This document shows, piece after piece, positions 20,953 to 30,554 of a DNA stretch of 64,000 bases. The translations under genes were made by a program, and so were the position numbers. The DNA is taken from NCBI GenBank assembly GCA_001767525.1, contig MELF01000036.1, positions 1 to 64,000 on the forward strand, given 5' to 3'. The DNA comes from Acidobacteria bacterium RIFCSPLOWO2_12_FULL_68_19. GTDB lineage: Bacteria > Acidobacteriota > Vicinamibacteria > Vicinamibacterales > UBA2999. Below the pieces are notes generated by a model, which saw only the letters and a program-made list of their open reading frames with translations, did no database searches and had not been told where the DNA came from. The first letter of the stretch is position 1; every line of letters begins with the position of its first letter.

Positions 20953-23202
20953 TTAGAACCGGTAGGTGTAGAGGATCTTCGAGGCGAGCCGGCGATCGAG
21001 TGTAGTGAACCGGTCGAGGAGCGGCTCGTCGAGCCAGTTGTGCGTGTAGACGACGTAGAGGTCGTTGCCGGGCGACAGGGTCCACCGGAAGCGCGCCTGC
21101 CAACCGAGCACGCCGCTCTGCGTGTCGTACTGGACGTCGTTGACGAGCGCGATGAAGGGAGAGGCCTGCGTCTCGCCCACCAGCCGGTAGAGACGCGTAG
21201 TGAAGTGTCCCTCCGGGAGCTTCACGGCGTTCCACTCGCCGCCGACATAGACGATGAGCCCGGGACGCCCCCGGACGGTCAGGTTGACCTGCCGCTGGGT
21301 GCGCGTGCCGGAGTAGAAATCGCCCGTCTCGTAGCGCCCGTTGACCGAGAGCATGCGCCGTTCGGCCGTCCGGGCGAAGATTCGGAACCGCGCGTAGTCG
21401 TAGTCGGCGCCCCTCGGCAGCGTGATGCCGCGGCTCATCCTGAACGGCCCGTCGAGGCGCTCGCGGCGGCGGGTCGCATTGATCGCCAGATGGTCTTGCG
21501 AGTGCAGCGTGATGTTGAACAGTGTGACGTCGACCTGGCGCGTGAGCAGGTCGTTCTGCCGGTCCGTCATGACGTCGACGTTGGCGCCGAACCGGAGCTG
21601 CCGGATGAAGGGATGGTTGCGCGGGCGCGGCGCGAACTGGAGCGTCGGCGCGTACCGGCGGTAGTTCTGGCGCCGGAGGAAGCCGACGGCCGGGTCGAAA
21701 TGCTCCTGGACCTCGGTGGTCTGGAACCTGGCGAACCAGCGGTCGTTGGGGTAGTCGAGCAGGGCGCCGAAGGCCGAGTTGCCGCGCCCGGTGTCGGGCC
21801 GGGTGGCGTGCAGCATCCACGCCCGGAGCTCCAGGTTCTGCGACCCCCGGAAGCGTGAGGTGGCCAGCGACATGTCGAGTCCGGTGGTGTGGCGGGCGTC
21901 GCTCCCGGCCGCCAGCGAATCGCGCCGCGTGTACAACCCGCCGACGTACGACTGCGCGAACAGGCGCCGCCTCACGCGCGCCACCGTGAAGTCCTCGCGG
22001 CTGAAGCCGCTGTCCTCGCCGGTGCGCACGTGGAGCACGCCGACGTCCTGGGCGCCCACCTGGCCGGTCACCTTGGTGCCGTAATCGATCTTCTGCGGCG
22101 TGGCATCGGCGCTCAGACCGACGCGGCGGCTGAAGAAGGGGATGACCTGATCGTCGGTGTCGGGGAGCCCGAGCCAGACCGCCCGACGCCCTTCGTCGCT
22201 GCTGAAATCGAGGAAGTTGGTGCCGTCGAGGAAGAAGTCGCGCTGCTCGGGAAAGAAGAGCGAATAGCGCGTCAGGTTCACCTGGCGCTGATCGACTTCG
22301 GTCTGCGCGAAGTCGGTGTTCACGGTGAAGACCGTGCGCACGAGCGGCGTCGGGTTGTAGAACAGGTCGATCCCGGCGCTGGCGTCGCTCGCCGTGCCCG
22401 GGGCGCCGCGGCCCGGCGAGGCCTGCGAGAGGAACGCCCCGTACGGCTTGATGTCGAGGCCGCGCCCCTGGCTCACGTTGCGGATGCCGGTCACCAGGCC
22501 GGCGTTGGTCAGGCGCCAGATGCCCTCGGTCCGGCGCCATCCCGACCAGATGCTCACCTCGTTCTTCCACTGGACTGTGCGCTGGAAGTTGATGCCCCAG
22601 GTGTCGCTCGCCGGGTTGAAGTTGAGCGTGCGGAAGGGGAGCTCGATCTCGAGCGTCCAGCCGACCTCGGTCCGCCGGGCGCGAACGTCCCAGATGCCGT
22701 CCCACGCGCGGTTGGTGTCGGTGGGGCTCTGGAGCGCGTCGGTCATCGCGCCCTGCGGATTCAGCTCGAAGAAATAGCCGGTCCGCGCATCCAGGAACGT
22801 GTCGATCATGATCTGGATCTTGTCGTCCGACTGGAGGCTCTCGTCGCGGCGGCGCTGGTACGCGATGCGGCGGTCCGGCTCGGAGTCGTAGCACGTCACG
22901 CCGATGTACAGCGCATCGGCGTCGAAGGCGATGCGCACGTCGGTTCGTTCGGTCGCCGGCCGGCCGTTGTCGGGATCGACCTGGATGAAGTCGCCGGCAG
23001 GGACGGCGCGCGACCAGACCGGCTCGTCGAGCCGGCCGTCGAGCGCCACCGACTCCCCGTCGGCGAGGCGTGTGGCCGCCATGGTCCGGCGGCCACCCCC
23101 TTCGGGCGCAGCCTGCTGCCCCTGCGCGGCGAGCGCGGCGTTCGGCGGAGCACACAGGAGGGCGGCCGGCAGCAGGGCCGCCGCCGCGAGGAGGCGTCTC
23201 AT
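20953..23202 (-). CDS. DUF5916 outer-membrane protein with CBM9-like N-terminal domain (paralogue 2)
   Basis: This 749-residue tandem paralogue of the gene at 18507-20798 shares the same design: signal peptide (MRRLLAAAALLPAALLCAPP), CBM9-like domain (LDGRLDEPVWSRAVPAGDF) and DUF5916 barrel with TDFAQTEVDQRQVNLTRYSL, ending in YTYRF. The ATG at 23202 was chosen because the signal peptide begins there; the frame stays open upstream inside the neighbour. Its start overlaps the stop of the metallo-beta-lactamase-fold gene by ATGA, indicating translational coupling and a shared role. The family is often numerous in Acidobacteriota-like genomes; the ligand is unknown. Confidence 0.87.
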   Translation of the reverse strand: MRRLLAAAALLPAALLCAPPNAALAAQGQQAAPEGGGRRTMAATRLADGESVALDGRLDEPVWSRAVPAGDFIQVDPDNGRPATERTDVRIAFDADALYIGVTCYDSEPDRRIAYQRRRDESLQSDDKIQIMIDTFLDARTGYFFELNPQGAMTDALQSPTDTNRAWDGIWDVRARRTEVGWTLEIELPFRTLNFNPASDTWGINFQRTVQWKNEVSIWSGWRRTEGIWRLTNAGLVTGIRNVSQGRGLDIKPYGAFLSQASPGRGAPGTASDASAGIDLFYNPTPLVRTVFTVNTDFAQTEVDQRQVNLTRYSLFFPEQRDFFLDGTNFLDFSSDEGRRAVWLGLPDTDDQVIPFFSRRVGLSADATPQKIDYGTKVTGQVGAQDVGVLHVRTGEDSGFSREDFTVARVRRRLFAQSYVGGLYTRRDSLAAGSDARHTTGLDMSLATSRFRGSQNLELRAWMLHATRPDTGRGNSAFGALLDYPNDRWFARFQTTEVQEHFDPAVGFLRRQNYRRYAPTLQFAPRPRNHPFIRQLRFGANVDVMTDRQNDLLTRQVDVTLFNITLHSQDHLAINATRRRERLDGPFRMSRGITLPRGADYDYARFRIFARTAERRMLSVNGRYETGDFYSGTRTQRQVNLTVRGRPGLIVYVGGEWNAVKLPEGHFTTRLYRLVGETQASPFIALVNDVQYDTQSGVLGWQARFRWTLSPGNDLYVVYTHNWLDEPLLDRFTTLDRRLASKILYTYRF

Positions 23203-24332
23203 CTGGTGCCGGTGTTCCTGAGGTCCTGCGGCCGGTAGGTCTTGCTGAATCCGTTTCGCCCGTTCGCAATCGTGTAGGTGCCGTCCCGGTCCGCCGTGAG
23301 CTTGAACCAGTAGGCCGGCCCGTTGTGCGCGGGAGGCGGCGGCGCGCCCGGCCCCGGCGCCGGTACGGCCATCGGCGCAACCGGCATCGCCTGGGGCTGC
23401 TCGTCGGCCACGTTCGCGATGAACAGGCCGGGGACGGTGTACTCCTGGCCGCTGAAGAGCGAGAAGTGGATCTGCCAGAGATCCTCGAGGCCGGGCGAGG
23501 AGAAGATCGTCCGCATGACCTCGGGCTCGCCTCCCTTGCGGGTGCCGTTGTTCATGATGATGGCCCGCGGGCCGAGCGCGTGGACGACGACCTCGGAGTT
23601 CGACGTCGCCTGGCCGTGATGGACGCCGAGGATCACGTCGACTGTGCCGAGGCGGTTGGCGGGACACATCAGCTCGAATTCCTTGTTCTTCGTCAGGTCG
23701 CCGAGGTGCACCGTACGGAACCGGCCGAAGGTGACGAGCACGCCAACCGACATCGGGTCCTCGAGGTTGTTGGTGCCCGGCGTGAAGCGGGCGCAGTACG
23801 GGTTGGGCCGGCCGGCGCCGGGGAGCGGCCTGGCCAGCACCTCGCCGTTGGAGGTGACCACCTGGACGTCGACCCCGGCGAGTGGGATGCGGGCGCCCGG
23901 CCTGGCGACGGTGTGCGCCCCCTTCGCGTACATCTCCTTGTAGGCCGCCTCGAACTTCGCGCCCGATCCCGCCGGGTCGATGTTCGGTCCGGGGTCGATG
24001 AAATGGCGGACCGGCAGGCGCGGCAGCAGGTCCGGCAGGCCGCCGATGTGGTCGGCGTGGTAGTGCGTGACGATCAGGTGGTCGATCTGCGTGAGGCCGG
24101 CGTCCCTGGCGGCGGCGACGATGCGCTCGGCGTCGCGGCCGTTGCTCGGGTTGCCGGTGTCGATGAGGAGCGATTCGCCGGTGGGCGAGACGACGAGCGT
24201 GGCGTTGCCCCCCTCGACGTCGATGACGTAGATCTGGAGCGATGTCGACGCGCGGGTTTGCGCGGCTGAAGGAGCCGCCCCGACCGTCACCACGCCCAGA
24301 ACCGCCGCACGTGCCAGGAATCGCCGCGTCAT
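23199..24332 (-). CDS. Exported metallo-beta-lactamase-fold hydrolase
   Basis: The 377-residue protein has a signal peptide (FLARAAVLGVVTVGAAPSAAQ) and the metal motif T-H-Y-H-A-D-H with H90, H92, D94 and H95. Further metal ligands are expected at VHHGQATSN. The fold resembles the ComEC/Rec2-type hydrolase domain, here as a free, exported protein. A proline-rich stretch (about 310-335) precedes a small C-terminal beta domain. The ATG at 24332 follows GGAGGAGG, and TACTAT is readable as a -10 box at 24375-24380. It is translationally coupled to the following DUF5916 barrel. Substrate unknown. Confidence 0.82.
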   Translation of the reverse strand: MTRRFLARAAVLGVVTVGAAPSAAQTRASTSLQIYVIDVEGGNATLVVSPTGESLLIDTGNPSNGRDAERIVAAARDAGLTQIDHLIVTHYHADHIGGLPDLLPRLPVRHFIDPGPNIDPAGSGAKFEAAYKEMYAKGAHTVARPGARIPLAGVDVQVVTSNGEVLARPLPGAGRPNPYCARFTPGTNNLEDPMSVGVLVTFGRFRTVHLGDLTKNKEFELMCPANRLGTVDVILGVHHGQATSNSEVVVHALGPRAIIMNNGTRKGGEPEVMRTIFSSPGLEDLWQIHFSLFSGQEYTVPGLFIANVADEQPQAMPVAPMAVPAPGPGAPPPPAHNGPAYWFKLTADRDGTYTIANGRNGFSKTYRPQDLRNTGTR

Positions 24333-24823: not shown

Positions 24824-25078
24824 ATGAAGAGCGTTGCCGCAACTGAAGCCCAAGAGCGTCTCGGTGTCGTCCTGGATGACGCGCAGCGAGAACCGGTCGT
24901 GATTCGACGCGAGGACCGCGACGTTGCCGTCGTCGTTTCGATGGCGGAGTACGAACGCCTGAGAACCGGCAACGTGCGAGCTTTCCTCGACCTGAGAAGT
25001 GAGATTGCAGCCGAAGCCGCTGCCAAAGGACTTACCGACGGACGCCTCGCCGAGATTCTGAGCGGCGATGAAGCGTGA
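24824..25078 (+). CDS. Phd/YefM-type antitoxin
   Basis: The 84-residue protein begins MKSVAATEAQERLGVVLDDA and continues PVVIRREDRDVAVVVSMAEYERL, which matches the Phd/YefM DNA-binding N-terminal fold. Such antitoxins bind their own promoter and neutralise the partner toxin through a C-terminal tail. The stop overlaps the PIN toxin gene by 11 bases, the usual arrangement for a TA operon. Confidence 0.85.
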   Translation: MKSVAATEAQERLGVVLDDAQREPVVIRREDRDVAVVVSMAEYERLRTGNVRAFLDLRSEIAAEAAAKGLTDGRLAEILSGDEA

Positions 25079-25487
25079 GCGTGTTGTTCTCGACACCAAC
25101 GTTCTGATCAGCGGCGCGCTTTCCACCACATCGACCCCGGCCGCAGCTCTGGAGAAGGCCATCAACGATGGACAACTTCTGGCTTCCAGGGCCACTCTGC
25201 GGGAGGTGATGGAAAGGCTGCTCTCGCCGAGATTCGACACCTACGTGTCGCGGGAAGAGCGCGACGCCTTGCTCCTCCGCCTGGCGCCGCTCCTCGAGAT
25301 CGTGGAGATCGTCGAGACCGTTCAGGCGTCGCGCGATCCGAAGGACGACAAGTTTCTTGGCGTCGCTGTGAACGGACGCGCCGATGTGATCGTGACTGGC
25401 GACAAAGACCTGCTTGCGTTGCACCCGTACCGCGGAATCTCAATTCTGACGCCCGCCGACTACGTCAGTCGGCAGACCTCGCGTTAG
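25068..25487 (+). CDS. PIN-domain toxin
   Basis: The 139-residue protein begins MKRERVVLDTNVLISG, with the first PIN acidic residue D9, and has further conserved acidic positions in SRDPKDDKFLGVA and VTGDKDLLAL. PIN toxins are Mg-dependent ribonucleases that block translation when not neutralised. It belongs to the 'putative toxin component, PIN family' group. Its overlap with the Phd-like gene supports a two-gene TA module. The pair lies about 190 bases upstream of tRNA-Leu and outside the islet defined by the tRNA repeat. Confidence 0.88.
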   Translation: MKRERVVLDTNVLISGALSTTSTPAAALEKAINDGQLLASRATLREVMERLLSPRFDTYVSREERDALLLRLAPLLEIVEIVETVQASRDPKDDKFLGVAVNGRADVIVTGDKDLLALHPYRGISILTPADYVSRQTSR

Positions 25488-25673
25488 ATCACTCGGCCAG
25501 CCGAGGCTTGATGCGACCGGCCTCAACGTTCCCCGTAGCTTGGCGGACGCCTCCGACGGCTTCTCACTTGAGGTGGTCGGCCAAGACATCATCGTACGAG
25601 CGCTCGAATCTTTCGAGATCGAACGACCCCGCCACTCCGGTAGAATCAGGATGTTCCACGCACTGAACCACAC

Positions 25674-25760
25674 GCCGGGGTGGCGGAACTGGCAGACGCA
25701 CGGGACTTAAAATCCCGGGCCCGCAAGGGCGTGTGGGTTCGATCCCCGCCCCCGGCACCA
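25674..25760 (+). tRNA. tRNA-Leu(TAA) with encoded CCA
   Basis: The 87-base gene begins GCCGGGG, which pairs with CCCCGGC before ACCA. The anticodon stem GGGA..TCCC holds the loop CTTAAAA, giving anticodon TAA. A long variable arm (GGGCCCGCAAGGGC) and GTTCGATC T-loop are typical of class II tRNA-Leu. Its 3' end is the attachment repeat of the following islet. Confidence 0.95.
25739..25758 (+). repeat. Direct repeat copy 1: attachment site in the tRNA-Leu 3' end
   Basis: TCGATCCCCGCCCCCGGCAC covers the T-arm and acceptor stem of tRNA-Leu. The same 20 bases recur perfectly at 27718-27737 in the same orientation. Confidence 0.85.
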
Positions 25761-26022
25761 TTTCCTTTGGGAATCGCCACACATGCCGACAGTGAGAAGG
25801 CGACCGGGCGTCGTGCGGGATGTCAATCCGCTCCTACCTTCGACTCAATAGCAGCGGCGGCGATGCTCCGTTTCATCACGACGGTCACGGCAGATACTCG
25901 CTACGGCGTCTGAGAGCTGGCAAGCAAGGCTGAAATTGCCACACGTGGGGGCGGACGCCGCTGCAATTTCTGCCCGCCTTTTGGCGTAAACCTACGAGAT
26001 GCGGCATCGCTGTTCAGCCGGG

Positions 26023-26041
26023 ATACCATCCGTGGTATAGT
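26023..26041 (+). promoter_or_regulatory. Palindrome overlapping the -10 box of the methyltransferase gene
   Basis: ATACCA (26023-26028) and TGGTAT (26033-26038) form a 6-base inverted repeat with a 4-base spacer. The right arm overlaps TATAGT (26036-26041), a plausible -10 box. Such a site could mediate autoregulation of the R-M genes. Confidence 0.45.
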
Positions 26042-26093
26042 CGTCCCGCTTGCACGTCGGTTCGACGTGCCTTTCCGACCGAAACAGTTGACG

Positions 26094-27038
26094 ATGTTGA
26101 TCGAACCCGTCAGCAAGCCCACGACACCCCTATTCGACGAACGGAAACCGGCGAAGCTCGGGCCGTTTGAACTTGTGCGCGCGGATGCCTTCGAGTGGCT
26201 GCGGACGGCGACTCAGCGCAGCCTTCATGCCATCGTGACCGATCCGCCCTACGGTCTCGTCGAGTACACGCCGGCCGAACTCGCGAAGCTGAAGAAGGGA
26301 CGTGGCGGGGTGTGGCGTATCCCGCCATCGTTCGACGGCTGTCAGCGAAGCCCGCTGCCACGGTTCACCGTGCTGACGGAAGAGGATCGCGCCAATCTGC
26401 GCGCGTTCTTTCAACGTTTCGCCGAAGCCGTCTTTCCGGCGCTCGTGCCCGGCGCTCACGTCTTCATCGCGACAAACCCGCTCGTGTCGTATCTCGTCTA
26501 CGAACCGATGATCACAGCCGGATTCGAGAAGCGCGGCGAGATTATCCGGCGCGTATTCACGCTCCGTGGCGGTGATCGGCCGAAGAACGCGCACGAAGAG
26601 TTCCACGACATCACGGTCATGCCGAAGTCGTGCTACGAGCCGTGGGGCTTGTTCCGCAAACCCTGCGAAGGGCGCGTGCAAGACAACCTTCGCAAGTGGA
26701 AGACGGGCGGCCTGCGTCGAATCTCGAGAGACGAACCGTTCAAGGACTTGATCGAAGCGTCTCCTGCTCGCGGTCTCGAACGCGAGCTTGCGCCGCATCC
26801 ATCGTTGAAACCGCAGAAGTTCCTGCGGCAGATCGTCCGCGCCGCGTTGCCATTCAACGACGGCGTGATTCTCGATCCATTCATGGGCAGTGGCTCCACC
26901 ATCGGAGCAGCGTCTGCGTGCGGGCTTCGCAGCATCGGGATCGAAATCAACGTCGAGTATTACCGGATGGCCGAAAAAGCCGTGCCGTTGCTTGCCGCGT
27001 TGCGCACGGACATGAACGGGGATGGTTCGAGCCGCTGA
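26094..27038 (+). CDS. Site-specific DNA methyltransferase (beta-type, N6A/N4C class)
   Basis: Counting from ATG 26094 the protein has 314 residues. The catalytic motif IV is TDPPYG, about residue 50 from this start, and the AdoMet motif I (DPFMGSGST) lies near residue 261, followed by GIEINVEYYRMA. This IV-before-I order marks a beta-class amino-methyltransferase, with the recognition region between the two motifs. It probably methylates adenine N6 or cytosine N4 to protect the host from the partner nuclease. A GTG at 26067 in frame is an alternative start adding nine residues; neither start has a good ribosome site. It overlaps the downstream nuclease gene by 17 bases. Confidence 0.88.
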   Translation: MLIEPVSKPTTPLFDERKPAKLGPFELVRADAFEWLRTATQRSLHAIVTDPPYGLVEYTPAELAKLKKGRGGVWRIPPSFDGCQRSPLPRFTVLTEEDRANLRAFFQRFAEAVFPALVPGAHVFIATNPLVSYLVYEPMITAGFEKRGEIIRRVFTLRGGDRPKNAHEEFHDITVMPKSCYEPWGLFRKPCEGRVQDNLRKWKTGGLRRISRDEPFKDLIEASPARGLERELAPHPSLKPQKFLRQIVRAALPFNDGVILDPFMGSGSTIGAASACGLRSIGIEINVEYYRMAEKAVPLLAALRTDMNGDGSSR

Positions 27039-27630
27039 TTTCGACGCGGCCGTTTCGTTGCCGCCCGGCTTGGACATCAGTGCGATCCGCCGCGCAATCG
27101 AATACATCGAAAAGGAACTCGCCGATTTGGTTGAACTCTACTTCGAGCAAGCGAACGTCTTCAGCGCTCTCGTCGGTATGTTCGGCACGAAAACCCTCCA
27201 CCAATACAGCCAGTTCGAGAAGAACAAACATCCAGACATCGCCGCTCAGCGGTTCCCCGATCTCTGCCGGCGCCGGCGCGTCGGCAGACTGAAGCCGAAT
27301 GACTGTCTCGAAAGCAAGGCCAGCAAGCGGCCGTTCGCAATTCAGTCGCATTTTGATCATGCCGGTTGGTATATCGTGTGGCGCTATCTCGTCGATCCGC
27401 CTGAACAGATCGAGCATGGCAAGCCGGTGATCATCTGGCGAGTGGATGTCGTGTTCCTGAACAAAGACGATTGGAAATACGAAGGGAGCACGGCCGGGGC
27501 CGGTAGCGGCGGACGCACGCACACGTTCGGCGTGAGGGAACCGGCAACGAAACTCGAAGGAACCGCCGTGTACAAGCGCAAGGACATCGTGGTCAAAGGT
27601 GGCAAGCCCGTCCCCGTCAACGGCGACTGA
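27022..27630 (+). CDS. Putative restriction endonuclease partner, PD-(D/E)XK-like
   Basis: The family is not firmly recognised. The 202-residue protein has RFPDL with P79-D80, then 16 residues later LESK with E97 and K99, which fits the PD-X(n)-(D/E)XK nuclease core. SHFDHAGWYIVWRYLVDP and IIWRVDVVFLNKDDWKYE look like a compact enzyme fold. It overlaps the methyltransferase gene by 17 bases and is within the same tRNA-bounded islet. This makes a type II restriction enzyme the best explanation, but specificity and activity are unknown. The lower GC of the pair relative to neighbours suggests transfer. Confidence 0.6.
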   Translation: MVRAADFDAAVSLPPGLDISAIRRAIEYIEKELADLVELYFEQANVFSALVGMFGTKTLHQYSQFEKNKHPDIAAQRFPDLCRRRRVGRLKPNDCLESKASKRPFAIQSHFDHAGWYIVWRYLVDPPEQIEHGKPVIIWRVDVVFLNKDDWKYEGSTAGAGSGGRTHTFGVREPATKLEGTAVYKRKDIVVKGGKPVPVNGD

Positions 27631-27717
27631 ATTAGCAGACGAAGACGTGGTCCGTCTCAACCGAACCGTCCTCGTGTTTCTCGGCCTGGCACCGAGCCCG
27701 GGCAGGTAAGCGCGCCA

Positions 27718-27737
27718 TCGATCCCCGCCCCCGGCAC
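27718..27737 (+). repeat. Direct repeat copy 2: distal attachment site of the islet
   Basis: This is a perfect 20-base copy of the tRNA-Leu 3' end at 25739-25758, lacking the rest of the tRNA. It lies 88 bases after the nuclease stop and 49 bases beyond it the CcdC gene ends on the other strand. Confidence 0.85.
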
Positions 27738-27785
27738 TCACCGGGCTGCGCGCCGCTCGCGCCACCGGCGATGCGCGCGAGCCGC

Positions 27786-28301: not shown

Positions 28302-30554
28302 CTAGAAGCGCCGCGTGTAGAGCAGCTTCGTCGCCGCCTGCCGGGTGATCGTCACCAGCCGGTCCCGCACGGGATCGTCCAGCCAGTTGTGCGTGTACAC
28401 GACATACACGTCGTCACCGGGCGTGAGGATCCACCGGAACCGCGACTGCCAGCCGACCACCCGGCTGACCGAGTCGTACTGCACGGTGTTCACGAGCGAC
28501 ACCCACTGGCCGATCGCGACGTCCGGCGTCAGCCGGATGAGCTCGGTCCTGAACCGCGTCTCGGGCAGGTCGACCCTGTTGAGCTCGGTCGAGGTGTAGA
28601 TGATGAGCCCCGGACGGGCGCGCACGGTGAGCTCGAGCGACAACTGCCGGCGCGTCCCCGAATAGAAGCCGCCCCATTCGAGCGTCGGCACGACGGCGAC
28701 GACCCGCCGGTTCGCCGTCTGGCCGGTCACCCGATAGCGAACGAAGCTGAATTCGCGCCCCCGCGGCAGCGCGACCTGGTCGCGGACGTTCACCCGGAAG
28801 TCGGCGTGCAGCCGCTCGTACTCGGGCAGCACGAGGACGCTGAAGCTGTCCTCCGAATGAAAGTCGACGTTCAACAGCGTCAGGTTCCACAGCCGTGTCA
28901 GCCACCCGTCCTCGGAGTCGAGCTGCAGATCGGCGTCGGCGGTGAACCCGAGCCGGCGGACGAGCCGGCTGTTGCGCGGCCGCGGCGAGAAGTTCAGGTA
29001 GGGCTGGTACCGCGTGTACCCGCTCGTCCGCGTCATGAAGCCGAGCGCGGGGCTGAAATGGTCCTGGACGACGCGGTACGCCAGACCGGTGTTCCAGCGG
29101 TCGTTCGGATAGTCGATCCGCAGGCCGTAGGCGGCGTTGCGGCCGGTGCCACGCGGGTTGGTGGCGTTCAGGACGAATCCGCCGGCGGACAGGTTTTTCG
29201 ATCCCCGGAAGGTCGAGGTGGCAAGCTGGAAGTCGACGCCGGTGGTCTGCAGCAGCGGCGACGCGGCGTCCCGCCGATCGCGCCCCGTATAGAGCAGTCC
29301 CACGTACGACTGGCGGAACAGCCGCTGCTTGAGGCGCAGCGTCGTGAAGTTCTCGCCAACGACGCCCGCGCCCGGGTCGTCGGCCGTCTGCACCTGCAGC
29401 ACGCCCGCGTCGAGGCGTTGGCCGATCTGCCCGACCATCCGCGCGCCGTAGTTGATCGTCTGCGGGTTCGCGCGCTCGTCGAGCCCGATTCGGCGGCTGA
29501 AGAACGGGATGAGGGAGTTGTCCGCCTGCCTCCGGAAGCTGTCGCCGACGCCGACCGACGCGCCCGTGCCGAAGTCGAAATAGTTGGCGCCTTCAAGGAA
29601 GAACGTCCGCTTCTCGGGGAAGAAGAGGGCGAACTGCGTCAGGTTGACGGCGCGCTCGTCGACCTCCGTCTGCGCGAAATCGGTGTTGACGGTGGCGCTG
29701 GCGCGAAGCCCAGGCGTGAGGCTGTAGAAGAGATCGATGCCCGCCTTGACGCTTCCCTTCGTCTTCGGCTGGCCCGTGAGGGGAGAGGCGTCCGCCAGCC
29801 CCAGGGCGTAGGGGCGGAGGTCGAGCCCGAGCCCTTGCGTGACGTCCTGATTGAGACCGGTGAGGAGACCGGTGTTCGAGAACCGGAAGAGCCCCTGATT
29901 GAGCGCCCACCCGGTCCACAGGGTCTCCTCGCCCTTCCGGCGGACGGTGCGCTGGAAGTTGACGCCCCAGGCGGTGGCGTTCGGGTCGAAATTCAACGTG
30001 CTGAAGGGAATCGCGATCTCGATTGTCCAGCCGATGGAGCTGCGCCGGACGCGCAGCGTCCAGACGCCGTCCCAGTTGCGGTTGTACCCGGCGGGACCGA
30101 GCAGTCCCTCGCCCATGAGTCCGGACGGGTTGGTTTCGAAGTGGTACCCGCTCTGCGCCGTCAGGAACGGGTCGATCACCCACATGAACCTGTCGTCGGC
30201 CGGCAAGAACTGGTCGCGGCGGATCTGGTACCGCAGCAGCCCGTCCGGGTCGCTGTCGTAGCAGGTGACGCCCATGTAGAAGGTCGTGCGGTCGTAGGCG
30301 ATGCGGACTTCGGTGCGCTCGGTGGCCGGCGCGCCGGTCTGCGGCAGCTGCTGGATGAAGTCGGTGGCGGGCGCGGCGCGCGTCCACACCGGCTCGTCGA
30401 GGTTGCCGTCGACGGCGATCGCCTCGCCGTCTCTCATCCGCACGGCCGCCATCGTCGCGCGCTCGGGCGGCGCCTGCGCGGCGGCGAGCGAGGGCGCGAG
30501 TAGCGCGATTGTCAGCACACAGCAGTTGCGCAGGAATCTATGGGGTTCCATCAT
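28302..30554 (-). CDS. DUF5916 outer-membrane protein with CBM9-like N-terminal domain (paralogue 3)
   Basis: The 750-residue protein is the third copy of this design. It has a signal peptide (LRNCCVLTIALLAPSLAAAQ), a CBM9-like domain (VDGNLDEPVWTRAAPATDF) and the DUF5916 region with TDFAQTEVDERAVNLTQFAL. It ends in YTRRF, consistent with a beta-barrel C-terminus. It is more diverged from the tandem pair at 18507-23202 than those are from each other (compare TQFALFFPEKRTFFLEGANY with TRYSLFFPE). Ligand unknown. It is followed by CcdC and preceded by an exported alpha/beta hydrolase on the same strand, so the three may form one unit. Confidence 0.86.
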   Translation of the reverse strand: MMEPHRFLRNCCVLTIALLAPSLAAAQAPPERATMAAVRMRDGEAIAVDGNLDEPVWTRAAPATDFIQQLPQTGAPATERTEVRIAYDRTTFYMGVTCYDSDPDGLLRYQIRRDQFLPADDRFMWVIDPFLTAQSGYHFETNPSGLMGEGLLGPAGYNRNWDGVWTLRVRRSSIGWTIEIAIPFSTLNFDPNATAWGVNFQRTVRRKGEETLWTGWALNQGLFRFSNTGLLTGLNQDVTQGLGLDLRPYALGLADASPLTGQPKTKGSVKAGIDLFYSLTPGLRASATVNTDFAQTEVDERAVNLTQFALFFPEKRTFFLEGANYFDFGTGASVGVGDSFRRQADNSLIPFFSRRIGLDERANPQTINYGARMVGQIGQRLDAGVLQVQTADDPGAGVVGENFTTLRLKQRLFRQSYVGLLYTGRDRRDAASPLLQTTGVDFQLATSTFRGSKNLSAGGFVLNATNPRGTGRNAAYGLRIDYPNDRWNTGLAYRVVQDHFSPALGFMTRTSGYTRYQPYLNFSPRPRNSRLVRRLGFTADADLQLDSEDGWLTRLWNLTLLNVDFHSEDSFSVLVLPEYERLHADFRVNVRDQVALPRGREFSFVRYRVTGQTANRRVVAVVPTLEWGGFYSGTRRQLSLELTVRARPGLIIYTSTELNRVDLPETRFRTELIRLTPDVAIGQWVSLVNTVQYDSVSRVVGWQSRFRWILTPGDDVYVVYTHNWLDDPVRDRLVTITRQAATKLLYTRRF

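Follow-up and report, generated by a model that had tools for sequence, protein, structure and literature searches.

Cis-mobilizable elements (CIMEs) keep both attachment sites, attL and attR, at their target gene but have lost the genes for integration and transfer; their origin is ascribed to the decay of integrated elements, and they have been described in tandems with ICEs or IMEs (PMC5704250). In Dehalococcoides, 15 of the 31 ssrA-specific genomic islands have no integration module, and the authors discuss possible CIMEs among them (PMC3146451). The island finder Islander takes a tRNA gene and its displaced fragment as the two ends of an island, and requires an integrase gene (PMC4383910). 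The islet described here, at a tRNA-Leu(TAA) gene, belongs to a known kind, the integrase-less tRNA-bounded element, and is CIME-like in structure: it keeps attL and attR, as 20-bp perfect repeats matched by an empty site in a sister species, and has two genes only, without integrase or transfer genes. It differs from CIMEs in being just 2 kb long with one restriction-modification (RM) system, and the likeness observed is one of structure. With the Dehalococcoides islands it shares the lack of an integrase between 3'-end repeats of an RNA gene and the presence of sister islands that do have one, although those islands use one target gene (tmRNA) and serine recombinases, whereas several tRNAs, tyrosine integrases and a smaller cargo of RM, toxin-antitoxin (TA) or nuclease genes are found here. 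As in the islands sought by Islander, there is a regenerated tRNA and a displaced 3' fragment in the same orientation, but no integrase accompanies them, so that islets like this one are filtered out.

The locus was studied within a stretch of 64,000 nucleotides from Acidobacteria bacterium RIFCSPLOWO2_12_FULL_68_19 (the window). The comparisons involve G001, a sister species of the same genus, G041, from another genus of the same family, and further relatives. The features around the tRNA are the following:

24824-25487, + strand: Phd antitoxin and PIN toxin (PF02604; PF13470 / TIGR00305), between backbone and tRNA, outside the islet, common to G001
25605-25673, + strand: final bases of a tyrosine integrase gene that has decayed, plus spacer, 5' of the tRNA and outside the islet; alignable to the ends of the integrases of G001 (score 89) and G025 (score 58)
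25674-25760, + strand: tRNA-Leu(TAA) (ARAGORN), the functional copy and hybrid left attachment site (attL), sole tRNA gene in the window
25739-25758, + strand: left copy of the core repeat, T-loop to acceptor stem, TCGATCCCCGCCCCCGGCAC (exact match)
25759-25765, + strand: CATTTCC, left arm of the islet, common to the unrelated tRNA-Leu islet of G041
26067-27038, + strand: beta-class DNA methyltransferase (PF01555, PADLOC), starting at GTG 26067 or, likelier, at ATG 26094
27022-27630, + strand: predicted type II restriction endonuclease with PD-(D/E)XK fold, of an unnamed family (invariant motif, AlphaFold, fold neighbours)
27718-27737, + strand: right copy of the core repeat, attR, the displaced chromosomal tRNA 3' end (exact match to TCGATCCCCGCCCCCGGCAC)
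27738-27754, + strand: native chromosomal flank, directly 3' of the tRNA in the G001 empty site (14/17 identical to L069 4878-4894)

The original prediction had described a perfect 20-base repeat of the tRNA-Leu 3' end bounding about 2 kb, and this was found exactly so, with both copies in the same orientation. By chance, 20-mers within three mismatches are expected at 0.05 per window (shuffled windows); no third exact copy exists in the 4.2-Mb genome, where one match to the core with two mismatches was found elsewhere, inside a tRNA-Lys. The real repeat length is 20 bp, starting in the T-loop, because the longer homology that would extend the right copy into the anticodon arm was equalled by 1227 of 2000 shuffles and was rejected. 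The tRNA-Leu copies of G001 and G025 end in GGCAC followed directly by T, without CCA, and both the window islet and the G041 islet at tRNA-Leu(TAA) read GGCACCATTTCC, so the encoded CCA of the window tRNA-Leu probably derives from the islet. Among the family genomes, CCCCCGGCACCATTTCC occurs exactly in G000 and G041 only. The gene pair had also been called less GC-rich than its neighbours, which holds against the downstream DNA (57–63% in the islet, 66–70% downstream) but not against the DNA of the Phd/PIN toxin-antitoxin pair that immediately precedes the tRNA, where GC is equally low, so GC is no marker of the left edge of the islet.

As had been predicted, the repeats enclose just two genes in about 2.0 kb, the methyltransferase ORF and a 202-aa ORF overlapping it by 17 bp. 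The methyltransferase matches PF01555 (E 2.6e-17) and the PADLOC type II methyltransferase model PDLC03215 (E 2.7e-113), and it is of the beta class because its motif IV (TDPPYG) precedes motif I (DPFMGSG). The earlier call of a PD-(D/E)XK nuclease for the second ORF is borne out by motif and fold: P79-D80, E97-x-K99 and Q108, which form the PD-(D/E)XK site pattern, are invariant in 28 aligned sequences, and AlphaFold predicts the structure with confidence (pLDDT 88). With Foldseek alone, no match to this model reached an E below 0.001, and the best ones, BglI and EcoRV, are not significant; a second structure aligner placed NaeI (Z 9.7) and SfiI (Z 8.1) on top, then DpnI, SwaI, BglI and EcoRV. 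Taken with the linkage to the methyltransferase, the motif and the predicted fold make the reading as a type II restriction enzyme well supported. The pair resembles known type II systems (NaeI, SfiI and EcoRV as fold neighbours) in having a beta-class methyltransferase, with amino-methyltransferase motifs, adjacent to a linked endonuclease-fold protein with a catalytic motif, and it is from these features that we infer the two enzyme activities; it differs in its nuclease, for which Pfam, NCBIfam, PADLOC and PHROGs gave nothing above cut-off.

G001 is the sole genome of the same genus available for an empty-site comparison. It has neither RM gene by DNA search, nor the nuclease by protein search, and its matching locus carries a single copy of the 20-bp repeat. 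The tRNA-Leu of G001 is followed by TCACGCCGCTGCGCGCC and the second copy in the window by TCACCGGGCTGCGCGCC, which are identical at 14 of 17 positions, a match equalled at just 2 of the 63,982 other positions of the window; the CATTTCC... sequence directly after the window tRNA matches the G001 flank at 6 of 17. The switch between islet and native sequence falls exactly at the end of the 20-bp core. By these alignments, the tRNA-Leu locus of G001 is an empty site for the RM islet, and since this genome lacks the pair, has one repeat copy and joins its tRNA directly to the flank that lies beyond the second repeat in the window, site-specific insertion at tRNA-Leu is well supported. A close relative with a single repeat copy and a matching right flank is what had been suggested as a check of the original prediction, and neither of the contrary results named with it was seen (the genes without the second repeat, or the repeat without any insertion polymorphism). 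G001 diverges again 17 bp past the junction and carries 2.4 kb of other genes there before synteny resumes at a CcdC-like gene, so the right side of the tRNA-Leu locus changes in other ways too.

The islet had been described as site-specific yet devoid of an integrase, and with an HMM built from curated sequences and aimed at tyrosine integrases we found none between the 20-bp repeats. No integrase stump was recognised inside the Leu islet either, so its former integrase can be proposed only by analogy. Integrase traces lie on the other side of the tRNA. In G025 an intact tyrosine integrase of 385 aa, with a putative excisionase-like gene upstream of it, ends 8 bp 5' of tRNA-Leu(TAA); G001 has a truncated one just 5' of tRNA-Leu, lacking the N-terminal part and with His in place of the catalytic Tyr, and G041 retains a short remnant at the same place. 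A search for an integrase elsewhere that uses the tRNA-Leu site had been suggested; no intact one close to that of the relatives is left in the window's genome, which is a draft in which a helper integrase may be collapsed or missing. In G041, tRNA-Leu(TAA) bounds a different islet of 2.7 kb with a single permease-like gene, its repeat being a 57-bp partial copy of the tRNA with 2 mismatches. Other observations concern the surroundings of this tRNA. The Phd/PIN pair of the window (24824-25487) adjoins the integrase remnant and shows ~89% DNA identity to G001, against 81–84% for the neighbouring backbone. Two paralogous large ORFs, 20953-23667 and 28302-30554 (-), with ~67–70% DNA identity over ~1 kb, flank the tRNA-Leu locus in the window. 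In G018 (L076:5470-6040) the 5' half of tRNA-Leu(TAA) ends at the anticodon loop (GACTTAAAA), apparently split at a contig end, and the adjoining DNA encodes a tyrosine integrase directed towards the tRNA.

At least five such islets, the Leu islet included, occur in this genome, which the original prediction had missed. We searched for exact 18-bp tRNA tails up to 10 kb on each side of the tRNAs of this genome and ~12 kb downstream of those of three relatives. In the four genomes, 22 copies were downstream of tRNAs and none was genuinely upstream, the one upstream hit being the reciprocal of a pair; this downstream-only asymmetry rests mainly on the window's genome, given the short upstream stretch of the three relatives. 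Five islets were found at the 44 tRNAs of the window's genome, the Leu islet (2.0 kb) and four others bounded by perfect repeats of 44–47 bp, which begin in the anticodon loop and extend to CCA:

L139, tRNA-Arg at c10060-10137: Arg(TCT) islet, 0.93 kb, with DUF4258 and an MqsA-like protein
L146:9959-11353, + strand: Cys islet, 1.35 kb, with a HEPN-like fragment, DUF6883 and DUF4926
L147, tRNA-Asn at c9981-10055, reverse strand: Asn islet, 1.74 kb, with ParE, and HigB with an HTH partner
L159:11044-16005: Gln(CTG) islet, 4.9 kb, with ERCC4-type nucleases and DUF3368/UPF0175

No intact tyrosine integrase was found in these five islets with the integrase HMM. The Cys islet has a 70-residue C-terminal integrase stump that points at the tRNA, and the Gln islet has another C-terminal stump, identified by the HMM (E 4e-5 and 0.004) and by their sequence; Pfam did not recognise them. 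No convincing arm motif is common to the five islets. The T-loop and anticodon-loop sublocations of tRNA sites, as Williams is said to have set out in 2002, belong to known integrase subfamilies. Among the islands of G001, those at Asp and Lys have whole integrases, the one at Arg(CCG) a fragment, and those at Arg(TCT), Gln, Cys and Ser (with a weaker repeat at Ser) no tyrosine integrase; in G039, two islands have an intact integrase (Arg, Thr) and one has none. Overall, the tyrosine integrase was intact in 4, broken in 3 and not recognised in 9 of the 16 islets examined, and this mixture in neighbouring islets of one lineage is the series expected from decay. At Arg(TCT), the two congeneric species hold different cargo between equivalent borders. 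The tRNA-Cys island of G001 (L176, tRNA at c13071-13144) spans 13 kb, its 45-bp perfect repeat lying at a distance of 12,970 bp; no tyrosine integrase was found in it, and it may use another recombinase. A different arrangement was seen at several tRNAs, where the 3' tail of 19–26 bp recurs ~83–104 bp downstream (G056: L238, L244, L249, L265, L267; G025: L077:5001-5192; G028: L022). The spacer is hairpin-like and in several cases is found after each of the two copies, so that the whole looks like a tandem tail-plus-hairpin unit.

When 84,980 species genomes were scanned, homologues of the nuclease (51–86% identity) turned up at 35 loci, in bins of Acidobacteriota, Planctomycetota, Gemmatimonadota, Chloroflexota, Pseudomonadota, Myxococcota and Calditrichota. 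A methyltransferase is directly upstream in nearly all of them and the pair is kept as a unit at ~30; the nuclease is present in 3 of the 43 family genomes, and searches of viral contigs and plasmids gave no match to it. A search for the same pair at other tRNA sites had also been suggested. A tRNA is nearby in 3 of the 35 loci (L046, selC at 18 bp; L063, tRNA-Leu(TAA) at 1 kb; L060, tRNA-Gly), about the number expected by chance for 320 kb and not clearly commoner, although the closeness to selC is striking, and in the majority the pair is away from tRNAs. No convincing att pair was found among the direct repeats around the pair in 31 other loci, so the RM pair has no general link to tRNAs. 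In a Chloroflexi bin (L046:6001-6718) 18 bp separate the end of the pair from the tRNA-SeC 3' end, with no detectable second repeat, and in a Terriglobia bin (L063) the family lies ~1 kb 3' of tRNA-Leu(TAA), an integrase end being 5' of the tRNA and a second repeat absent. Three Gemmatimonadota loci have an intact-looking tyrosine recombinase within ~5 kb of the pair (L042:3-1187, L048:3551-4810, L062:21-1187).

We favour, with moderate confidence, an explanation in which the islet is the scar of a tyrosine-integrase insertion at tRNA-Leu(TAA) that has since lost its mobility genes and kept its RM cargo. A tyrosine integrase, no longer carried, would have inserted DNA at the T-loop/acceptor end of the tRNA by recombining the chromosomal 3' end with a 20-bp core in the incoming DNA that matched it. 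At the left edge the tRNA would thereby have been rebuilt, its CCA now being encoded, and its old 3' end would have been displaced to the right edge. The mobility genes would then have been lost, as the sister islets suggest by analogy, leaving the type II RM system. An RM or a TA system can function as an addiction module. Here the methyltransferase would shield host sites and the PD-(D/E)XK enzyme cut unmodified DNA, and defence against phage together with punishment of its own loss would explain why the pair outlasted the rest of the element, a presumed retention by addiction.

Movement in trans had been put forward beside a reduced relic, and of the two the relic fits better, because islets of the same genome hold integrase stumps and other tRNAs of the relatives bear islands with intact integrases. 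A live integrase-less passenger (hitcher or CIME-type), which an integrase of the same tRNA-Leu site, such as the 5' integrase of the relatives, would mobilise in trans or in cis, is possible though doubtful. It would agree with the intact G025 integrase and the remnants in G001 and G041, with the arm GGCACCATTTCC common to two islets of unrelated cargo (the RM pair here, a permease gene in G041), and with the 9 of 16 surveyed islets in which no integrase is recognisable. However, the window's genome has no intact integrase close to the tRNA-Leu-adjacent one, five islets at five different tRNAs would require several integrases, two islets contain the stumps that decay predicts, and the close RM homologue in G010 is away from any tRNA or repeat. 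We give little credence to tRNA-Leu(TAA) being an integron-like platform, where a resident 5' tyrosine integrase would insert and remove integrase-less cassettes (RM pair, permease gene) on the 3' side, comparable resident integrases serving other tRNAs; such an arrangement seems quite improbable.

There are two further readings. The repeat could come from a local tandem array of tRNA 3' tails, between which the RM genes entered by illegitimate or homologous recombination, as the copies of 19–26 bp starting in or near the T-loop at several tRNAs of relatives might suggest; in G025, G028 and G056 the tail copies lie ~85–105 bp downstream. We consider this improbable, since the spacer in the relatives is a short hairpin-like unit, in several cases with one sequence after both copies, whereas in the window the sequences after the tRNA and after the second copy part exactly where the core ends, and the native one is solely that after the second copy. 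A repeat arisen by coincidence, or as a terminator-like sequence through convergence, beside an RM pair that is ordinary chromosomal content would suit the position of the pair away from tRNAs in most of the 35 loci, with nearby tRNAs not clearly above chance. This reading is nevertheless very improbable indeed, given the chance expectation of 0.05, the flank match of the G001 empty site, the presence of the nuclease in so few family genomes (3 of 43) and the occurrence of such repeats strictly downstream of tRNAs. Returning to insertion followed by loss of mobility genes, the five islets are most likely what is left of tRNA islands after pruning, with addiction or defence cargo retained, and are CIME-like.

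An island finder that insists on an integrase will overlook islets of this sort. The density of islets in one genome and the apparent bias of their cargo towards RM, TA and nuclease genes are points worth following, and the nuclease belongs to a widely spread family of restriction enzymes that is nameless in the libraries searched. Together with their sister islands, which have whole or broken integrases, the islets form a natural series in which the survival of addiction or defence genes during decay can be set against cassettes moved in trans.
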